DNA from: Protula sp. h YS-2021
Taxonomy: Eukaryota; Annelida; Polychaeta; Sabellida; Serpulidae
Direction: 5' to 3'
Assembly: GCA_949752745.1 (NCBI GenBank)
Contig: OX457034.1
Span: 7,834,904-7,898,903, forward strand
DNA length: 64,000 nt
Each line of letters begins with the position of its first letter. The first letter of the stretch is position 1. A model generated the notes under the pieces. That model ran no database searches. It saw nothing but the letters and a program-made list of their open reading frames with translations, and was not told the DNA's origin. The position numbers and the translations under genes are program-made. Below, one piece after another: positions 185 through 62,000 of the stretch.

Positions 185-3905
<3,721 letters not shown>

Positions 3906-18201: not shown

Positions 18202-20294
18202 CTAGAAGCTAACTGCGCGAGCGCAATTGTCTCACATGGCATATTGGGGTACATTTGGGAAACTTGAGACAAAATACAGAATCATGGAACTTACACTAAA
18301 TGTCGGGGCCTTATTAATAAAAAAGAATTTGAAAGCACTTTTCACATTCAGACAAATTTTTTAAACAAAAACACAACTAGAATTGTTTTAACTCCGAAGG
18401 CTCGAAAACTCGCCGCCGAGATACCCTTCTATACAATGTGTTATAACCTTTGGGTCGAAAATTCGCTCAGAATCGCTCTATCTCTAACCGTTTTCGAGTT
18501 AGTGGCCAACTTCCGGTTTCGAAGTCGATCGTCACCCGACCGGGTCGCGCTCGCCGACATACCCTTTTCTACAGTGTGTTTTACCCTTTGGGTCGAAAAT
18601 TCGCTCAGAATCGCTCTATCTCTAACCGTTTTCGATATAATAGCCAGCTTCCGGTTTCGACGTAGATCGTCACCCGACCGGGTCAGGCCCACCGAGATGC
18701 CATCTTATACAAGTGTTTTAACCCCGAAGGATCGAAAATTCGCTCAGAATCGCTCTATCTCTAACCGTTTTCGAGATATTAGCCAACTTCCGGTTTCGAT
18801 GTCGATCGTCACCCGACCGGATCGACCTCGCCGAGATACCCTTTTATACAAGTGTTTTAAAACCTAAGGTTCGAAAATTCGCTCAGAATCGCTCTATCTC
18901 TAACCGTTTTCGAGATATTAGCCTACTTCCGGTTTCGACGTCGATCGTCACCCGACCGGATCGACCTCGCCGATATACCCTTTTATACAAGTGTTTTAAA
19001 CCCAAAGGGTCGAAAATTCGTTTGGAATCGCTCTATCTCTGACCGTTTTCGAGATAACGACCAACTTCCGGTTTCGAAGTCGATCGTCAACCGACCGGGT
19101 CGCGCTCGCCGAGATACCCTTTTATGCAGTGTGTAATAACCTTTGGGTCGAAAATTCGCTCAGAATCGCTCTATCTCTAACCGTTTTCGAGATATTAGCC
19201 AACTTCCGGTTTCGACGTCGATCGTCACCCGACCGGATCGACCTCGCCGAGATACCCTTTTATACAAGTGTTTTAAACCCAAAGGGTCGAAAATTCGCTC
19301 AGAATCGCTCTATCTCCAACCGTTTTCGAGATATTAGCCAACTTTCGGTTTCGACGTCGATCGTCACCCGACCGGGTCCCGCTCGCCGAGATACCCTTTT
19401 ATACAGTGTGTTATACCATTTGGTTCAAAAATTCGCTCAGAATCGCTTTATCTCTAACCGTTTTCAAGATATTGGGTAACTTCCAGTTTCGACGACGATC
19501 GTCACCCGACCGGATCCCGCTCGCCGATATACCCTTTTTATACAGTGTGTTATACCCTTTGGGTCGAAAATTCGCTCAGAATCGCTCTATCTCTAACCGT
19601 TTTCAAGATATTGGGTAACTTCCAGTTTCGACGTCGATCGTCACCCGATCGGATCCCGCTCGCCGAGATACCCTTTTATGCAGTGTGTTATACCCTTTGT
19701 TTCGAAAATTCGCTCAAAATCGCTCTATCTCTAACCGTTTTCGAGATGTTAGCCAACTTCCGGTTTCGACGTCGATCGTCACCCGACCGGGTCGCGCTCG
19801 CCAAGATACCCTTTTTTCAGTGTGTTATACCCTTTGGGTCGAAAATTCGCGCAGAATCGCTCTATAATCGTTTTCGAGATATTACTTGTTTTAACTTTGA
19901 CCTTGAATTTGACCTTGAAAACAATGCTCAAGGTCACTGAAATTCAGCGCAGATTCAGTTCACATTAGTCTACGTATGTGTGCCAAGTTTCAATTTTCTG
20001 CGCCCAGCCGTTTTGGAGGAGAAGCGCGAACAAGAATTCGGCCGCAATTTACATTTGACCTTGAATTTGACCTTAAAGATAATGCTTAAGGTCACTGAAA
20101 ATCGACGCAGATCGAGTTCACGTTGGTCTACATACGTGTGCCAAGTTTCAACTTTCTACGCCCAGCGGTTTCGGAGGAGAAGCGCGAACAAGATTTTGGC
20201 GGAAAAGTAAAAAAAAAACAAAAACAAAAACAAAAAATAGGTGAAGAATTCTAAGCATTTCAATCTCATATGGTATCTTTGATACCATGTGAGA
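18202..20294 (-). mobile_element. Helentron-associated-like element 2 with ~139-bp tandem core
   Basis: On the minus strand the 5' end is a 29-base hairpin (20293-20265, arms CTCACATGGTATC and GATACCATATGAG). The 3' end carries an inverted copy of the arm (ATGCCATGTGAG, 18242-18231), a perfect small hairpin TGCGCTCGCGCA (18225-18214), eight bases and CTAG (18205-18202) followed by T. The architecture is the same as the elements at 1739-3354 and 40272-42772, although the terminal sequences differ. The core (about 18390-19890) is a tandem array of 138-139-bp units (phases at 18451, 18589, 18728 and onward, roughly eleven) with CTATCTCTAACCGTTTTCGA and AACTTCCGGTTTCGA. Its 5' end abuts the left boundary of duplication copy 2. 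It is non-autonomous. Confidence 0.7.
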
Positions 20295-20512: not shown

Positions 20513-22602
<2,090 letters not shown>

Positions 22603-28680: not shown

Positions 28681-31600
28681 ATGACTCCTATCCTTTATCC
28701 CTTTACCTTGGAACAAACCAAAATAGGAATTATGGCAAACGCACATCAAAGCACGAAAAATAAACTGACATGTTTTTTAAAAGTAATCAGTATTCTAGCC
28801 GTTGTTGTGTTAGTTCCATTAGTTCAAAAGTCAGGCGTTTTGGTGACACAAGTAGCACATCAAACTGTACACAAAGCTCTTAGAACGGTGTCAATGCAAA
28901 ATATAAGCACATTGACTGCGCACATAATTAAACAAAACATAAACACAACGGATTTGATCAAGACTATGAAAACTAATACATTAAAATATCCAGCCAAGAA
29001 TGTCAAAGTTACAACATTAACGTCTTCTAGACATCATAATAACTGGACAGGTTTGTTTTACTTCAAAACAATTTTCTTGTTGTTTTATAAAAAAAATAAT
29101 TAGCTCATTTAATATATTCTTATTACATTTTTTTAAATACAGTCGAACCCGCGTAATATCAACACGGTTATAATGAAGTAAAGTGATTTACTTGGTCCTA
29201 ATTTCAATGCATTGCTTTATATGGACAAAATTGACGTAACTTGAAAACGCCTAATGTTAAGTTCATGGTACTGTAAAGTCCGGCATTATTTCCTACAGGC
29301 CAAACTTACTGCCTAATCTGTTCGCGTAATGTGAACTACATAAACGCCCAAGGACAAAGGCACATAGAACGCAAATGCACAATAGACGAATAAATGTCAA
29401 CATTGAATGTTATTGTTTATAAAAGACATTGTTGTTGGACCATCACAAAAGGGACACTAATTGCATTTGGCCAGTCATTGAGATGCCTTCATGCAGACAA
29501 AACAGCCGTAGCTATAAGTGATGAGGAACTCATCAGAGAAGTCTCGGCAGCAACAGCTGCCCTCAAACTTATCGATGTGCTGGTTTAACACACAAGCTGC
29601 TATTCCGGCGCAGGGAAAGGCTATGACCTTTTGGCCAAGTACATAGACTGGTCGCAGAAACAAAGAAGCAGAAGCTCCAAACAATCGAAAATTAAACAAT
29701 ACTTGAAATTGTGATTGATTTTAGCTGTAAATAGTGTGACTGTTCAAGTTCGAGATGTAAATAGCGCAAGCAAGAAATAAACCCAATAATCGTTCCAAAA
29801 TAAGCAATAAATCTATGCCTATTGAATGCATAGATGTTTGAAAGTGTTTTTGCTCTGTCAGGACGACTTCATTTTGCTTTACATTGTCACCTTGTTGCAT
29901 GCTATTGGTGTTAACATAAGCTGTATGTCTTTATTTTTATACACACAGAATACAATTTGTGCCAAATAAAACGTCTAAAGCGATTGCGACAGAGGTGTTA
30001 CAACAGCGGCTACCGTCAATTTCAGCCGTATAATTCTGTGCCTATGAATGTGCTGCAGCAATTTGTGTCCTACACCTTGACAGATAGAAAGCACCGCATA
30101 TTGATGTTGGCTGCTCCAAAATCAGGTGTTCAGCTGGAAATTTTCCAATACATGCGACTTTTAACTGTACTGTACTCGTGTAGTTAAGATATATAGCCAT
30201 GCACAAGCAATTATAAATGCTGATAAACTTTGTTCAATGTGTTAAGTATTTTCTACCGGTAAGACGTACCTTATAACGTTTTGACAAATAATGAACAGAC
30301 AAACTTCCATATTCAAATATTTTTATTTTAAATCCAGATTATTAACACGCTCTTAAGTTAAAAGGAACTTGGGCTTGTAAGATAGATTCTGCATAATTCA
30401 CAGGGATATACCTACATCATTATGCCAGCCATATTGACAGTTTATTGGCACCTATTGATTTCACTTTCTGAAATATAGGTTGCAGCTCGTGGAAAACTCT
30501 TTTGGTTAAGAGCGTAGCAACCAAGCAACAACTGAAGCGTTACAATCTGTCGTCATGGGAACCAGCAGACGGTATACTGCATGGTCTCGGCCTGCCATAC
30601 CTTACTCATGTCACCGCTTCAGCACATGATATTCAAAGCTATCTTAACAGCTACTTTTACATGCTTACGGGTAAGCAATTATCTTCTCTAATTGTAATCC
30701 ATTGACTCTTTGACTGTGTAATTTGAATACAGAATATTATACTACATTATGGTAAAGTGTGATATTAAGTTCTTTGATATGGTTAGTTTTTGATGCAAAC
30801 TAATAAGATTTACAGTATAATTTTCATATTATTGTATCTTATCTGATTTAAAATAACAAGCGTTCGAAAGGATACAAAGCTACTAAATAACCTATGTTAA
30901 GACCAAAAATAATTCCCCTGCCGGAGGGGGTAAGCAACGGTACATCCACCCCTTCACCCATTTGGGAACCCATTTGTTTCATTTCACTCTGGCCCCATCT
31001 ATTGACACGCTATTTAACTTGAATAATTGTTTATTTTTGCAGTGAGGCATCCACTGAGCAGGCTAGAATCTGCTTATAGAGACAGAATACAGGGTTTTTA
31101 TGCTCATTACACAAGAACATTCTGCTTGAAAATATTAAAACGCTACCGAAATATAACCAATGATACTCAAAAACGTGCCTTCAATAGCAATTTACATAAG
31201 ATCTTAAATACCTCAGACCCAAATACGATTTCATTTTGGGATTTAAGGAACTTGCCAAGACCAACGTTTGAAGAATTTTTGAGATATTTAATAGATAATG
31301 GTTACAGGGAAGATCCACACTGGCAGAATTATGAGACATTTACTCATCCTTGTGCTGTCCATTACTCGTAAGTACTCAAACATTTGTTCATCTTTGTACT
31401 ATCCATTAGACCTTTGTTCATCCTTGTGGTAATCATTACTCGTAAGTACTTAGATATTTGCTGGTTCTTACACTGACTATTACACGAAAATACTCGCTAC
31501 CCGTGCTGTCTGTACTAATTCTTCGGACAATTGTCCTTCCTTGTACTGCCCATTGCTCACATGTACTCAGACATTTATACTTTCTTCTGCTATTCATTCT

Positions 31601-32237
31601 TTGCACTGACCGTCACTTGTTCGTACTTAGACACCTGTTCCTCCTGGTGATGCAGATTACTTGTAAGTAATTAGACATTTCCCATAAGTATTTGATAATA
31701 TTATGACCTACCTCGGGTCTTAAAACTGGAACTTATGCTCTACAACTCATATGGAACTGATAAGGAATAAAATATCGGCTAGTCTTGTTATTTCATTGAA
31801 CCTGCATTAGTACATACTTTAGTCACTGTTTATTTTTGTGCTAGAAACTGCAAAAAATATCAATTTTTTACAAAAAAAGAATATTTGTATAAAATTATAG
31901 TGTTTTACATGATACATTTCAATATGTGACTTTCAGCTTTATTGGAAAACAAGAAACAATAGACTTGGATATGACTTATATTAGCGAATCAAGACTGTCC
32001 ATGAAAGCGGAACGAGTACATCTTAACATGAAAAGCAAAAATAGCAAATTAACAACCAGGTTTGCATTTTTGCCCTTGTTTGACAAATTGCCAAACAAGA
32101 AGAAATGGATTGAGCAAATAATGGAAATTTACGGTACGGATATGAAACTATTTGGTTATACTTTACATACTGACAAAGCTACTGGTACTCTTCAGGCGGG
32201 TTGTGAAGACTATGGATTAAATGGTCTGTGTTGCTAA
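28681..32237 (+). CDS. Carbohydrate sulfotransferase (CHST8-14/HNK-1 type), five exons
   Basis: Exons 28681-29050, 29949-30125, 30479-30670, 31043-31367 and 31937-32237 join (phases 1, 1, 1, 2) into 454 codons plus stop. The upstream triplet before 28681 is a stop; Met-18 (28732) is an alternative start. The product looks like a type II Golgi membrane protein: a short basic cytoplasmic end, a transmembrane anchor at about residues 32-49 (VISILAVVVLVPLV), a stem with NIT/NTT sites, then the Sulfotransfer_2 domain. The PAPS-binding 5' loop reads APKSGCSSWK (residues 179-188) and the 3' phosphate site reads VRHPLSRLESAYRD (from residue 247). Near the C-terminus come HYSFIGKQETIDLD and the FGY-containing end, as usual for the family. 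The family transfers sulfate from PAPS to GalNAc, GlcA or related sugars; the acceptor cannot be read from the sequence. The exon 2 donor (GTGTTC) is weak. Exon 4 is followed by donor-derived repeats. Confidence 0.9.
29140..29273. mobile_element. Pogo/Tigger-like MITE in intron 1 of the sulfotransferase gene
   Basis: The 134-bp segment starts TA-CAGTCGAACC and ends GTACTG-TA, with TA on both sides. Terminal CAGT/ACTG and TA target duplication are typical of Tc1-mariner/pogo relatives. It resembles in size and ends the elements at 38510-38683 and 43793-43927. Confidence 0.5.
31338..31690 (+). repeat. Degenerate ~42-bp tandem copies of the exon 4 end and donor
   Basis: The last 30 bases of exon 4 and the donor (CCATTACTC|GTAAGTAC) are followed by related copies: CCATTAG, then ATCATTACTCGTAAGTAC about 75 bases on, then TATTACACGAAAATAC, CATTGCTCACATGTAC and GATTACTTGTAAGTAA. 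There are about seven units, increasingly diverged, over 350 bases. At least two downstream copies keep a good donor. See the findings for the same pattern in the DUF229 gene. Confidence 0.7.
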
Positions 32238-40271: not shown

Positions 40272-42772
<2,501 letters not shown>

Positions 42773-53030: not shown

Positions 53031-56000
53031 TCAGGATTTGGGCTTTTGGTGTTTACAGTAGCAATATTTTCGCAGTTCTGGCAGAGTTTTCAGGACACAG
53101 TGAGGCTGGCTGCCGTAAGCGTTAATCCGGCTAATCTCCTGGTTAATCCGCCAAGTCTCGTCCTTGACGTCATACTGCACGGTCGCCTTTTGGAAATAAA
53201 CGAAACAACTTATATTTACACTACATTTCTATTTATATTATATTTATATTTGCACTACATTTATATTTAAATTGTATTATTTCGTAAAAACAATTGTTAT
53301 CATAAGTTTATAGTAAACCATTTATTAGTACGCTGTGGATGGATGATTTAGTGAGAATCCTCATACAAGGCAGTTATGAACGTGTAAAATATAAATGCTG
53401 GTAGCCGGGTTCTTATCAAACCAGCGTGACCTCATTCAGCCCGTCATTAGTCCGTACTACAATTTGGTAGTACACTACATGTAATTCTACCTCACCTCAT
53501 ACAGCCCGTCATTAGGGCTGGTACGTACGATAATTTGGTAGTACACTACATCTAATTCTACCTCACCTCATACATCCCGTCTTTAGGGCTGGTCCGTACT
53601 ACAATTTGGTAGTACACTACATGTAATTCTACCTCACCTCATACAGCCTGTCATTAGGGCTGGTCCGTACGATAATTTGGTGCCACACTACATCTAATTC
53701 TACCTCACCTCATACAGCCCGTCACTAGGGCTGGTCCGTACGATGATTTGGTAGTACACTACATCTAATTCTACCTCACCTCATACAGCCTGTCATTAGG
53801 GCTGGTCCGTACGATGATTTGGTAGTACACTACATCTAATTCTACCTCACCTCATACAGCCTGTCATTAGGGCTGGTCCGTGCTATGATTTGGTAGTACA
53901 CTACATCTAATTCTACCTCACCTCATACAGCCCGTCATTAGGGCTGGTCCGCACGATGATTTGGTAGTACACTACATCTAATTCTACCTCACGTCACCTC
54001 ACCAAGTGAGTACACTACATCTAATTCTACCTCACCTCATACAGCCCGTCACTAGGGCTGGTCCGTGCTATGATTTGGTAGTACACTACATCTAATTCTA
54101 CCTCACTTCATACAGCCGGTCATTAGGGCTGGTCCGCACGATGATTTGGTAGTACACTACATCTAATTCTACCTCACGTCACCTCACCAAGTGAGTACAC
54201 TACATCTAATTCTACCTCACCTCATACAGCCCGTCATTAGGGCTGGACCGTACAATGATTTGGTAGTACACTACATCTAATTCTACCTCACCTCATACAG
54301 CCCGTCACTAGGGCTGGTCCGTACGATGATTTGGTAGTACACTACATCTAATTCTACCTCACCTCATACAGCCTGTCATTAGGGCTGGTCCGTACGATGA
54401 TTCGGTAGTACACTACATCTAATTCTACCTCACGTCACCTCACCAAGTAAGTACACTACATGTAATTCTACCTCACCTCATACAGCCTGTCATTAGGGCT
54501 GGTCCGTACGATGATTCGGTAGTACACTACATCTAATTCTACCTCACGTCACCTCACCAAGTAAGTACACTACATGTAATTCTACCTCACCTCATACAGC
54601 CTGTCATTAGGGCTGGTCCGTACGATGATTTGGTAGTACACTACATCTAATTCTACCTCACCTCATACAGCCTGTCATTAGGGCTGGTCCGTACGATGAT
54701 TCGGTAGTACACTACATCTAATTCTACCTCACCTCATACAGCCCGTCACTAGGGCTGGTCCGTGCTATGATTTGGTAGTACACTACATCTAATTCTACCT
54801 CACCTCATACAGCCCGTCATTAGGGCTGGTCCGTACGATGATTTGGTAGTACACTACATCTAATTCTACCTCACCTCATACAGCCCGTCACTAGGGCTGG
54901 TCCGCACGATGATTTGGTGGTACACTACATCTAATTCTACCTCACCTCATACAGCCCGTCATTAGGGCTGGTCCGTACGATGATCTGGTAGTACACTACA
55001 TCTAATTCTACCTCACCTCATACAGCCCGTCACTAGGGCTGGTCCGCACGATGATTTGGTGGTACACTACATCTAATTCTACCCTCACCTCATACAGCCC
55101 GTCATTAGGGCTGGTCCGTACGATGATCTGGTAGTACACTACATCTAATTCTACCTCACCTCATACAGCCCGTCGCTAGGGCTGGTCCGTGCTATGATTT
55201 GGTAGTACACTACATCTAATTCTACCTCACGTCACCTCACCAAGTGAGTACACTACATCTAATTCTACCTCACCTCATACAGCCTGTCACTAGGGCTGGT
55301 CCGTACGATGATTTGGTAGTACACTACATCTAATTCTACCTCACCTCATACAGCCTGTCACTAGGGCTGGTCCGTACGATGATTTGGTAGTACACTACAT
55401 CTAATTCTACCTCACCTCATACAGCCTGTCATTAGGGCTGGTCCGTACGATGATTTGGTAGTACACTACATCTAATTCTACCTCACGCCACCTCACCAAG
55501 TGAGTACACTACATCTAATTCTACCTCACCTCATACAGCCCGTCACTAGGGCTGGTCCGTACGATGATTTGGTAGTACACTACATCTAACTCTATTTTGC
55601 TGCTGAAGTTTGTGATTCTCTCGTCGGGGTTGCTCTTCAAGAACCGCAGCACCTAAGGACATCAACAATCAACCATTTTTTATTGAAAACAGAGAATTTC
55701 GGCTTTATATTGTACTTTATGTTGAACTAACTCAACATTATACCAACATCGGGTCGATTGTGACCTTGACTAAACTGTCCGTGAATTGACGCGCACACAT
55801 GCCAAGCTCGTGAATACACGTGGTCCATATAACACACGGACGGACACAAAGTCGTATCCAGCTCCCCCTCCCACGCCCCCACCCCTCCCCCCCCCCAAAA
55901 AAAAAAAGCAAGGAAAAGAAATTAAAAAAAAAAACACCTTGCATCCCTGTATTCGAAGAACAACAAAAAAATAATTCTCGCTTTTTTTTTATTTTCACAC

Positions 56001-59000
56001 ACTGGTACCTTTTCATTGGGTATGATCATTTTGGCGTCCTTGATTTCGCCCAGGCTGAGCTCCTCACACAGGCCCTCATGATCCTGCGTCAAACTGAAAA
56101 ACAAAAATCAAAACACACAGAAGACGCGCGTTAATAATACAGCGTCTGAATGCATAAACCGGCGAATGGCATTAAAATTCCGCGTCCTTGTTTCCCGGTT
56201 AATATAACCACATAATGTAACCACATAACCGCATAAATCCTATAATATATATCTTTGTAAGGAAAATTGGCTATGCGATTAATGGCAATTTGCTGCCCAA
56301 AACAACGGCCTGATTAACACAGTCACATTAAATAACAGTGAAATGTTCACAGCGTTAACAAGATGGCAAAAATGACGTTCTCGCAGCCATGACGTTCGTT
56401 GCAGTTCCAACGCCAATAATGTATTTTGATATATGACGTCAATGCACAGGTTCTTAAGAACGCTGAGCTATCACGCCAATGAAATCTTCACAAGAACACT
56501 GTCACACGACGGCAACGACAAGTTCACACGGACACTGATACACAAAGTCAACGGGCACTGCTCACAAGGACACTGGATATACAAGATCCATGACAGGTTC
56601 ACAAAGACAACAATGTACAATGTCAACGGACAAGTTCACAGGGACACTGATACACAAAGTGAAGGCACCTGTTGATGTGGCGCACGACTTTTTTTGCACC
56701 CTGGCGCACCAGCTCGTGGTCGAGCGCCACCTCTTCATACGTCATACACGTGCACCAGTGTATTTCGATGTGTGCCGATGCGCACGTGCGGTTCAGCGGG
56801 ATCTCGTGCAACAGGCTGATGCCTTATAGCAGCAGCAGTAACCAGCACACCAACCGCCAGCCAGCAGCAACCAGCATACCACCACCAGCCAGCAGCAACC
56901 AGCACACCACCACCAGCCAGCAGCAACCGGCACACAACCGCCAGCCAGCAGCAACCAGCACACCAACCGCCAGCCAGCAGCAACCAGCACACAACCACCA
57001 GCCAGCAGCAACCAGCACACCAACCCGCCAGCCAGCAGCAACCAGCACACAACCACCAGCCAGCAGCAGCAACAACAAAGAGAACGAAAACAATTATATC
57101 AGGAAAAATAGGCAGGGGTAAACGTTTAATTTTTATACAGTTTTTTTTTTTAAATTAATCTACGTGAAAATCTGAATAAAAATAGAGAACGGGCAAGAAC
57201 GAGGTAAAGGAGGAAACGCGGACAATATATGAAAATATGAAAGCGAAAGTGAAGCTGTAAAGTATATCCAGGAGATCCAGCAGCGCTACGTGGACATCGA
57301 ATTGTGTCGTCAGGTTGAGGTGTGTGGGAGAGGGGGGGGGGGGGAGGGAAGGGGAAGGCGGGAGGGAAGGGGGAAGGGGGAGCAGACGGAGGTCGGTTAC
57401 AGTGGTTATAAAACAGACCTCTAGCCTGGTGATTGACAGGCGTCGACGACCTCGATATATCCAGGAGATCCAGTAGCGTCTCATGGACGTCGAATGGCGT
57501 CGTCAGACGATCGACGTTCTTCTTTAAATTCTCGTACAACTTCGGGTACTTCTTTTGAAATTTCTCCGGGAACGTGAAGGACATCATGGGTAACCTTTCC
57601 TCTAATTTTCCCTGCACCGTCCTGGAGGCAGAAAAACCAGCTTTGCCGGTTATTTACACCGATCTCACACGCGCCACCCCATCCCCCCTCCCTCCCTCAC
57701 CGCCTCCCCTCCCCTTCTGCTTTACTTCAATTTGCTAAGTTGTTCTTTTCTTTGTGCTCTATATTAAACATAAACATTCTTTTTAGTTTTTGCCTTATGG
57801 TAAGAGATGTAAGTTCCATTTTTCTTTTTTTTTAAATTTTTTTAAAAATTTATTTATTTATTTATTTATTATTATTTTTTTTTTGAGGTGGGGGGGGGGG
57901 TGGTTGCTATTTTTCTTCTTAGTTTTTGTTTTTGTACTTCACACTTGTGGTAGAGATGTAAGTTCTATGCCCTCTATTTTATTATTATTATTATTATTAT
58001 TTTTTTTTTTTTTTTGAGGAGGAGGGGGGGGGGGGTTGGTTGCTATTTTTCCTCACTCACCAGCGGACCTTGCTGTAGCGTGCGCCGTGGTCTCCCATGA
58101 CGACGAGCAGCGTGTTGTCAAGGTAACCGTTGTCCTTGAGGAAGCGTAGCAACGCGGCCAGATCGGCGTCCACGTATTGGCCTGGGTTGTTGTCGGCGTG
58201 CGTCAAGTCACCCGTGAAGCCCAGAGCGAACTTCGGTATGTTGTTGTATCTGCAGGACCAAATACACTTCACAATTTAGGGAAGACCTCTGGGGAAGGGA
58301 GGGGGGGGGGGGGCGGGAGGAAGGGGGAGAGGAGACATCACTGACTTTATCATGAAATCGAGCGTAGTTGAGCGTGAATGCGGGTTCCTCCTGCCCGCCC
58401 AGACAGTACCTCCGGGGGTTGGCGGGCGAGGGGCGGGATGGGGTGGGGGGTGGGAAGAAGCGGAATCCACTTCGTCATGACGGCAGGCTGCACTCACTTC
58501 ATCATAAAGTCCTTCAAGTAGTTGAGTGTGAACGTGTGTTCCTCTTGTCTACCCAGGCGGTACCCCGGGGGGAGGGGAGGCGGGGTACAGGGAGGGGCAG
58601 AAGCGGCACTCACCTCATCATAAAGTCCTTCAAGTAGTTGATTGTGAACGTGTGTTCCTCCTGCCCGCCCAGACAGTGCTCGCGGGGGAGGGGGGGGGGG
58701 GGGTGGTGGCGGGGCAGGGGTAGCGGGGCAGGCTGCACTCACTTCATCATGAAATCCTTCAAGTAGTTGAGTGTGAACGTGTGTTCCTCCTGCCCGCCAA
58801 AGCAGTACTTGGGGGCCGGCGAGGGGCAGGGGGAGTGACTCACTTCATCATGAAGTCCTTCAGGTAGTTGAGTGTGAACGTGTGTTCCTCCTGCCCGCCC
58901 AGACAGTACTCCGGACTCGCCTTGTGAAGCCGGGCGTCGTGTATGGCCTGCCAGAACGGACGGATGTAATGGTCCACCGGACGTTCCTCGAACCCGTTGA

Positions 59001-62000
59001 AACGTAGCTGGAATGTCCCCATTCCTGAAGGAACAGCAGCAAATGGCGATTATTTCATACAATGATTTCTTTTTATTTGCACCTTGAAGAGTAAACAATC
59101 TGCCCCCCAGGGTTGTCAACAAATCACATTTCTTTCATAAAAAATCATGATTTTTATTTTTTTTTTACTGAAATCGATTTTTATAATTTAAATCACCAAA
59201 AATCAATGACGCCATAAATTACACAAAATACCCGTTTTTATCCCTTTTCCCTTGCTCCACCGAGCACTACACACAAATGCAACAACTACTTAATAAAATA
59301 GAATTAGACAGTGTGAAGCTACCCTCAGTCTTCTGCATGGTCACTGTTTACTTATCAGATAGCAACATACCAACACATCTTTGTTAAATACGCATAAATA
59401 AGGTGAAATACCGCTATTATATCTGATAGGGCAGAGGCATTTATCTACTGTTTATTCAACCTGCTTTTGAGGAAATCTACCTTCTGTCTTTTTTTTTTTT
59501 TTTTTTTTTTTTTTGGCAAACTAAGCAAAATCTTTTTTACAAGTATGCAAAATGGCCTATTTCTTGTCAACAAATGGCCGTTTTACTGTCAACAACTGGT
59601 CATTTTACTGTCAACAAATGGCCGTTTTACTGTCAACACATGGCCATTTCACTGTCAACAAATAGCCGTTTTACTGCCATACAAATGACCGTCTTCCTGT
59701 CAACAAAAGGCCGTTTTACTCCCAACAAATGGTCGCATTCTGCTTCAAAATGGCCGCTTGCCACAAAAATGGCCACTTTACCTGGCTGGTCCTCGGCGAA
59801 CAGTGTGACGTAACCACTTTGCTCATACTTATTCCAAACGAAGGGAAATTTGTCCACGTACGTCGATCCTGCGTGTCCCCTTCTTACTTCCGGTAGTTCC
59901 GTTTCATTTTTACCTGCAATCCAGGGTTCAGATTTCGCGGTCGCCCGGACGCCCATGGCGACCAACTTTTGGCTCGGGCGACCAACTTTTTCGAGTTGGT
60001 GGCCCGAGTGGCGACTAACTTTTTCGGAGTATTTTCAGGTAAATACTGTTGATTATTTTAAACACCATTTTGTTGTTGTTTTTTCATGTGAGGCCGGTTC
60101 GACAAACTTTGCAAAAAAAAATTGCGCAGGGCGACTAACTTTTGTGCCGGGCGACCAGAAAAATTAACGAAGTCTCAACCCTGCAATCAAATAGAAACTA
60201 GTAGATCCTAAATTAGTGATTATTTACGCACAAGGCAATCACTGTGGTCCCAGGACTAAATAGCGGAGTGTCTGACTATAGAGTGCTTTGTGTCCACTAA
60301 AATTTCGGCGAAACAGCGAAAACTATGGGCAATATTGACGACAGGCTACTATGTACAAGATCGTTTATAATTCAAAATGAAAGGTTTAGATTTCAAGTAG
60401 AAATCGAGATTTACAACGTAAAACGCAAAAAAAAAAACAACAACAAACCTTTGTCTCAACTCAGATTTAGAAGAAAACTTGTCAAGGCCTTGACAAACAT
60501 AAAATCTATCTGGAAACGCACACCATCAAGTAACACCTGATAAACAGAGCTCACAGATATGCGCTCTCTTCAAGCACGATCGGGTGTACTTCAAGTGACC
60601 ACACGCCTCCTGCACTCACCAGGCTCGTGGCATGTGACGTCACGCTGAACTGAATAAAGTACAGTTGCTTTCTGCTGCAGCGAACACATTCATAAGGCCT
60701 TCCCTAAATATATGTGCAATGGGGGGTACAAGCCATCAACAAACACACACACGCAGCCGACATCGTGATGACGTCAGACTCATATCTTCAACGTCATCAT
60801 GGAAAATGGCGTCCTTATACGGTCTTCAGCTGGCGCATGCGCACAAAAACATAAACTAGACCTAGGCCAGAAGTTTGTATCTGTGCACAGCCAAAAAGAC
60901 ACCCATCAGCCGCAAAGTAAAGAGGCCATGGGGAAAACCGGGCCATGCCAAAGAAAACTAGAGCAGTCTGCATAGCCCACATATTCCCCACAGGCCCCCC
61001 ATCAGTTAAACACGGCCATCAATAGTCAAGGGCTGAAATTTTCTAAGTCCAGCTGGTCCATTTTCCTTGGACGAACCTGACCCATTTACAATACCGATCT
61101 GAGTTTGTTCGCATAGAAGCTACACACCAAGTTTCATTAAAATCCTTGCAGCAGCTCTTAAGTTATCGTGCTAACAAGCTGTTGATGACAGACCAACACA
61201 CGGTCGATCGCATATATTCTCCCCCCCCCCCCATGGGGAATAAACAATGAGAGAGAACCAAAGAAAAACAGGTATTTTTACGGATAGGTAAAAAAAAAAC
61301 AGCTGTGTTCAATTAAAAAATACTTACCGCACGTTTTTTATTATGTAATCTGTACCCACGAAAAATGTTGGTAGCACATAGTACAGGCCTCATTACTACA
61401 CCCACTCTATCTCTTAACAATAGGCCTCTAAGTGCTGTTATCTTATCTTTTTTTCTGAACTGAACAAGTTTATTGTGCAACTTGTTCCCACACACGCGGA
61501 GTTTAACAATTATGTGTGACCCTCGCCAAAATGCCTTTCATATGGCACTTATTTTAAAAAGCTCATTATCTAACAAAATTCTTTGTTTAACATTTTCTAA
61601 AAAAAAACAGCTTGAAATGTGACGTCACAATGATCCAGCAAAGCATCCTGCCAGTTTTTTGTTTTTTTTTATTTCATAAGTATTCAGTGAGATATTCATG
61701 ATTCGTTCGCCGAGACCTGTACTGCACTTAAAATTGTACTGTACTAGGGTAAAATTTTTAAGCCCCCCCCCCCCCAGGCTTTTTCCCCTCAGATTTGTCC
61801 GACATTTTCTCATTGAAATCGACGATATATGTCAAAAAATTTCCCTTAAAGTTGACCGGAAATTTGAACGCTGTACCAAGGAATTTCAACTGTTTCCCGT
61901 GTGAGAACGGGTTAACACGCAGCACATGTATTACCTGTTAGAATGGGTAACATTGCAGCTGTTGTCGCATCACCCACAATATTGTAGCCGTTCAGTATGA

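Follow-up and report, generated by a model that had tools for sequence, protein, structure and literature searches.

In the window, the 64,000-nucleotide stretch of Protula DNA that was analysed, a minisatellite (53431-55523, minus strand) lies behind exon i of a sulfatase-like DUF229 gene, and its unit is built from the end of that exon and the exon's own splice donor. We are confident that this array is a minisatellite of the 'mirage' type, produced by duplication of an exon-intron boundary and subsequent expansion and homogenisation, in which the first copy is coding, the rest are intron and the first donor would be the one mainly used.

The gene lies on the minus strand, from 63134 to 53031, and comprises ten exons, whose ends were placed by eye and whose joined frame encodes 739 amino acids and a stop. 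Its first exon begins in an acceptor-like context, which suggests that further 5′ sequence of the gene is to be sought upstream, perhaps outside the window. The 739-aa protein belongs to Pfam DUF229 (PF02995), which it matches over residues 256-636 with 411.8 bits against a cut-off of 25 (E 5.2e-123). It also gives a weaker match to Pfam Sulfatase (E 2e-06), and a search of solved structures returned three weak matches, all sulfatases (best E 0.11). Among the matches listed, the closest named relatives come from molluscs and annelids. A tree built from the query and the first 40 of 120 listed homologues (41 rows) places the protein in an eight-member group that also contains the annelids Paralvinella, Capitella and Owenia as well as three unnamed rows; its support is 94/83, slightly under the program's own mark, and the placement makes an annelid source likely. 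Exon i (55530-55652) is 123 nt long and in phase 0, and the repeat derives from its final 65 bases (55594-55530). The unique remainder of the intron behind it (53187-53430) holds the acceptor TTTCCAAAAG, and the last exon j (53031-53186) encodes ATVQYD...ISRINAYG...YCYCK...stop, with three cysteines conserved in 114 of 120 homologue rows and gaps in the other six. Rfam yielded no match in the window at the gathering threshold.

We cut the array into units at the anchor TAGA(A/G)TTA, from the end of exon i onward. This gave 33 units with the native exon end included: the native one, 25 long units (24 of 71 bp and one of 72), six short units of 43 bp and one truncated last unit. Tandem Repeats Finder scores the 71-bp row at 1669, which excludes a chance origin. 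The match between exon and unit covers exon i positions 59-123, starting at TAGA(G/A)TTAG (55594); over these 65 bases, 22 of the 25 long units are 93.75-98.5% identical to exon i and the other three 87.7-92.3%. The first-pass annotation had proposed a minisatellite directly behind the exon, made of the exon's end and its own donor, and this comparison of exon with intron bears it out. Its figure of close to 30 units is inexact and the units are not equal, and its span of 53430 to 55652 took in the whole exon, whereas the array proper runs from 55523 to 53431. A unit of 60 exon and 11 intron bases had been assumed; 65 bases plus the six of GTGAGG describe it better, and the match at four of the five extra positions is suggestive of this split. 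Exon i reads TAGAG where all 25 long and six short copies read TAGAA, a change that would be silent in the exon. The short units have their first 21 bases in common with the long unit (one base differs in two of them) and then read TCACTTGGTGAGGTGACGTGAGG or nearly so. The first short unit (55481-55523) lies directly behind exon i and contains the sites TTG/GTGAGG and GGC/GTGAGG, where the slash marks the exon-intron boundary. The last unit (53431-53489) is worn, being only 80% like exon i, and the bases behind it (53430-53425) read GTCACG, which is no consensus donor.

We next consider the donors that the array carries. The native donor (55521-55529) reads GTGAGG and then an in-frame TAG (GTG AGG TAG). 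From the end of exon i through the array, GTGAG occurs 38 times, or 37 times without the native site. The exact GAG/GTGAGG accounts for 25 of these, the native donor and 24 copies, and the remaining contexts are TTG (six), GAC (five), GGC (one) and GAA (one). The claim that every unit repeats GAG/GTGAGG holds for 24 of the 25 long units but fails for the short ones, which show TTG, GAC and GGC sites. One long unit carries an extra G behind GTGAGG. When donors were scored by base frequencies, only the 25 exact sites passed the cut-off among the 246 GT sites of the intron; the TTG, GAC and GGC sites of the short units and the single GAA site fell below it, and the unique rest of the intron has no GT site above it. 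Within the gene, the donor of exon i ranks third by score among the nine native donors. Predicted pairing with U1 amounts to -10.2 kcal/mol at all 25 exact sites; the TTG sites, six in number, reach -8.6 and the other seven sites -5.2 to -5.9. The 24 exact copies thus equal the native donor in 9-mer, score and U1 pairing energy. We also asked whether the donor is conserved beyond the rest of the unit; GTGAGG is unsubstituted in the 25 long units, but 46 of the 65 exon-like columns are unchanged as well, and the observation is not telling.

The protein identifies the productive donor. We aligned the query with all 120 listed homologues of 546 found, 117 of which have residues around the exon i/j junction. 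None of these 117 has an insertion at the junction, and one has a gap at a junction residue. The evolutionarily kept protein is therefore the one made from the first donor, the alignment showing which junction yields it. The earlier placement of the exon end at the first donor, which creates the E/A junction of the conserved protein, is in agreement with this. Of the 37 distal GTGAG sites we translated nine, namely the first eight plus the last good donor; in contrast to the native product, all nine distal products end in GLYEVR and a stop, and exon j with its 51 residues is missing from them. This stop is the in-frame TAG at 55523-55521, two codons beyond the first donor, and the prediction that a distal donor would run into it and forfeit the C-terminal module was borne out in every product translated. 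Nonsense-mediated decay is usually called in when a stop lies more than roughly 50 nt before a junction. At the first short unit's two donors this distance is 24 and 34 nt, and the other seven translated give at least 105 nt, so transcripts from most later donors would be expected to meet nonsense-mediated decay.

These products could also be read as a device. Some transcripts would use distal donors and be truncated or decayed, and the length of the array would tune the amount of full-length protein. The equal strength of the 24 distal donors and the common stop after VR in the nine products would suit such a regulated poison stretch, as would the human ABCA7 VNTR, whose length is described as associated with reduced expression and increased skipping of exon 19 (PMC5954066). 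However, the ABCA7 isoform that keeps one VNTR unit is reported at about 2%, constant across array lengths (PMC5954066), and the 3′-most units of the Protula array are worn. We consider regulation of this kind unlikely.

No computed property, be it sequence, score, U1 pairing or RNA structure, favours the first donor over its 24 exact copies. RNA structure was rejected as the cause of the choice, as the fold around the native donor does not outdo shuffled sequences (z -0.85; 39 of 200 shuffles were as good) and this donor is predicted to be less accessible than average, with an unpaired probability of 0.002 versus a mean of 0.015 across the 25 exact sites. Since the copies are equal in sequence, score and U1 pairing and structure gives no advantage, position would be what remains to explain a use of the first donor, should it occur: this site is the earliest to be transcribed and gives the shortest exon, 123 nt as opposed to 156 to 2157 nt by later donors. 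A rule from test constructs points the other way, in that among equal donors the one nearest the acceptor is favoured; it therefore predicts the last good donor (53496; intron of 309 nt), against first-donor use. According to the account in PMC5389562, U1 occupancy of several donors affects choice and not efficiency, unless the sites are very close. The many sites might conceivably act without being spliced, by offering U1 snRNP a landing strip. With 25 strong donor-like sites and 13 weaker ones in 2.1 kb, the array would raise transcript output, by protection from early polyadenylation or stimulation of transcription, while exon definition fixes the first donor, and array length would tune the dose of the sulfatase-like protein with its sequence unchanged. 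We give this idea little credence.

For the array's origin, we favour a mirage-type history. A tandem duplication over the exon-intron boundary would have carried ~65 coding bases from the end of exon i, together with the donor, into the intron. Unequal exchange or slippage would later have multiplied these copies and kept them alike. Only the copy that is joined to the real exon, the first, would have retained the coding role, with the remaining copies becoming intron. Splicing would occur mainly at the first donor, the earliest transcribed and the one that closes the shortest exon, and most later-donor transcripts, with their early stop, would presumably be removed by nonsense-mediated decay. 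The sequence itself shows how the units are built, where the exon ends (by homology), the stop and the recurrence within the gene; the order of events, first-donor use in Protula, decay and near-neutrality are what we infer from it.

The internal pattern of the array is consistent with such a history. Exact internal block repeats of 168, 135 and 130 bp are present, and the mean identity between units is 0.93-0.96 at nearly all distances. The most diverged units, 29 and 30 (0.915 and 0.895) and the last one, all lie at the 3′ edge. Judged by the sequence, this combination of block repeats, even identity and a worn 3′ edge is typical of minisatellite turnover. Compared with exon i, 19 of the 65 columns vary among the copies. 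Eight of them hold silent changes and 12 hold changes that alter the codon, one column being counted in both groups, and this fits the expectation for non-coding copies. A stop codon that the change at column 19 seemed to create in one copy was discarded, as a further difference at column 18 makes the codon in that unit read Trp. The array is probably neutral, and variation in its length is plausible, given the exact block repeats in the one sequence. Tandem arrays are prone to assembly error, and the array is known from a single sequence; an error that altered the repeat number would be compatible with the mirage-type reading. Yet the copies differ at many columns and short units are interspersed, which argues that the array is not one unit stuttered, and we deem such an error highly improbable.

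Exon i is not the only exon of the gene with copies behind it. The last 67-71 bases of exon d (58844-59024, minus strand) are copied four times behind that exon (58346-58809; 58809-58743, 58681-58615, 58568-58498 and 58415-58346), with GTGAGT kept in three copies and GTCAGT in the last. A partial copy of exon f (57263-57313, minus strand; 51 bp, 84%) stops short of the donor. Downstream copies were thus found for three of ten exon tails, and upstream copies for none of ten exon heads. As a background, we searched random 85-mers for a copy within 2.4 kb downstream, with exons and exon-tail copies left out, and found one for 148 of 1000, and for 23 of 111 in 52-64 kb; with this array and the exon d copies included, the figures were 94 of 600 overall and 28 of 82 for 52-61 kb. 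The idea that exon ends are especially prone to duplication is therefore unsupported, three of ten tails being not clearly exceptional against this background, although with ten exons the numbers are compatible with a modest pull. Minisatellites with a period of at least 10 make up 33% of 52-64 kb, this array included, versus 14% of 1-52 kb. Because background copies are frequent and the region is rich in minisatellites, we prefer a neutral origin. Another splice site of the gene also adjoins an array, as a 28-bp minisatellite (CAGCAGCAACCAGCACACCACC...) at 56833-57068 ends about 11 bp before exon g. The last copies of the exon i and exon d arrays both have C for G at +3 (GTCACG at 53430-53425 and GTCAGT at 58345-58340, minus strand), two cases only and both in worn units.

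Could the copies be alternative exons, or raw material of a new intron or exon, through dual-specific AG/GT sites as in UBC or through mirage-based intron gain? AG/GT stands at the copied boundary in 24 of the 25 long units, and models of this kind are laid out in PMC3087553 and PMC10809524. Against this, none of the 208 AGs in the array is preceded by more than 10 pyrimidines out of 17, versus 9-16 at the ten native acceptors, so that the acceptor context is weak rather than absent; by this count, the five best AGs listed lie in short units. Moreover, of the unit lengths 71, 72 and 43 only 72 is divisible by three, the frame continued from the exon stops at the first TAG, and the acceptor of exon j lies 244 bp past the array. 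We accordingly regard this role as extremely unlikely, and birth of the present intron by this duplication was rejected, because the exon j acceptor lies outside the array. The array resembles the UBC dual-specific sites in having AG/GT in tandem, yet in UBC, as described in PMC10809524, AGGT is donor and acceptor at once and delimits coding monomers, whereas here the acceptor context is weak and the unit length breaks the frame. Three of the exon d tail copies are preceded by C-rich tracts ending in AG, with 13, 16 and 12 of 17 pyrimidines (58807, 58678 and 58409); by their sequence, these three would pass for small exons more readily than the copies of exon i.

Earlier work on amphioxus mirages is reportedly that of Canestro et al. 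2002. Repeats over exon-intron boundaries that include splice signals are already known from the 'mirages' of amphioxus (PMC3087553, PMC3902484). Such minisatellites are described there in Adh3, the globins BflGb6 and BflGb9 and other genes, to which PMC3902484 adds PGBD5 and troponin C. According to the account in PMC3087553, their units measure 10-160 bp, inner copies are homogenised with a divergent edge, and RT-PCR suggests that regular splicing is undisturbed by them. The Protula array shares three hallmarks of these repeats: a tandem unit that crosses the exon-intron boundary, with 65 exon bases and GTGAGG per long unit; splice signals within the copies, GAG/GTGAGG in nearly all long units; and homogenised inner copies with an excluded edge, units 29 and 30 and the last unit. 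As judged from sequence, it would be a new mirage case, and a large one beside the amphioxus globins. BflGb6 is described with three and six units in two haplotypes, on the acceptor side, and BflGb9 with one duplicate of a 3′ exon boundary, whereas here 32 copies stand behind a donor in a DUF229 gene. Among the open-licence papers listed, we found no donor array in an annelid DUF229 gene; for earthworm metallothionein genes, PMC12783039 describes duplicated exons missing from the final transcript and intron minisatellites.

The ABCA7 intron 18 VNTR offers a human parallel. As described in PMC5954066, it has a 25-bp unit whose first GT is the exon 18 donor and 23.7 copies in the reference; its splicing was measured, with about 14% use of a cryptic acceptor and about 2% retention of one unit, and use of the second donor shifts the frame. 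Both arrays of donor GTs start at the exon's own donor, with the native donor in register with the units. The ABCA7 unit, however, is described as intronic and starting at the GT, and the Protula unit holds 65 coding bases, which makes for likeness and not membership. ABCA7 alleles reach 9.7 kb in that account, longer than the Protula array, and splicing was measured there while the array here is known from DNA.

Several other features of the window were noted. Tandem arrays with units of ~128-139 bp lie at 2315-3163, 18414-19884, 40547-41673 and 42251-42557; by eye, they have stretches in common, for example CTCGAAAACGGTTAGAGAT or its complement, and appear to be a single repeat family present at several sites. 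Pieces matching Pfam Sulfotransfer_2 lie on the plus strand at 31027-31368 (E 2.4e-09) and 31893-32234 (E 0.0033, under the curated cut-off); the sulfatase-like gene thus shares the window with them. Two pieces at 188-1705 and 20764-22001 (minus strand), alike by eye, likely encode a membrane protein with tyrosine motifs in its tail (VVYADI); each adjoins an (AT)n/(AG)n tract, so they are probably a local duplication, and Pfam KIAA1549 is above its cut-off for the 188-1705 piece only (E 5.6e-06).

Taken together, mirage-type repeats, described in amphioxus and with a disease-linked relative in human, would extend to an annelid, in which the copies are numerous and a single gene has two such cases. 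Arrays of exon ends can also yield false exons, which is a warning for gene predictors. Importantly, exon definition predicts the first donor, with its 123-nt exon, and intron definition the last good donor, with its 309-nt intron. As 25 identical donors lie between one upstream and one downstream acceptor, a single RNA measurement would separate the two, making the array a handy natural test of splice-site choice.
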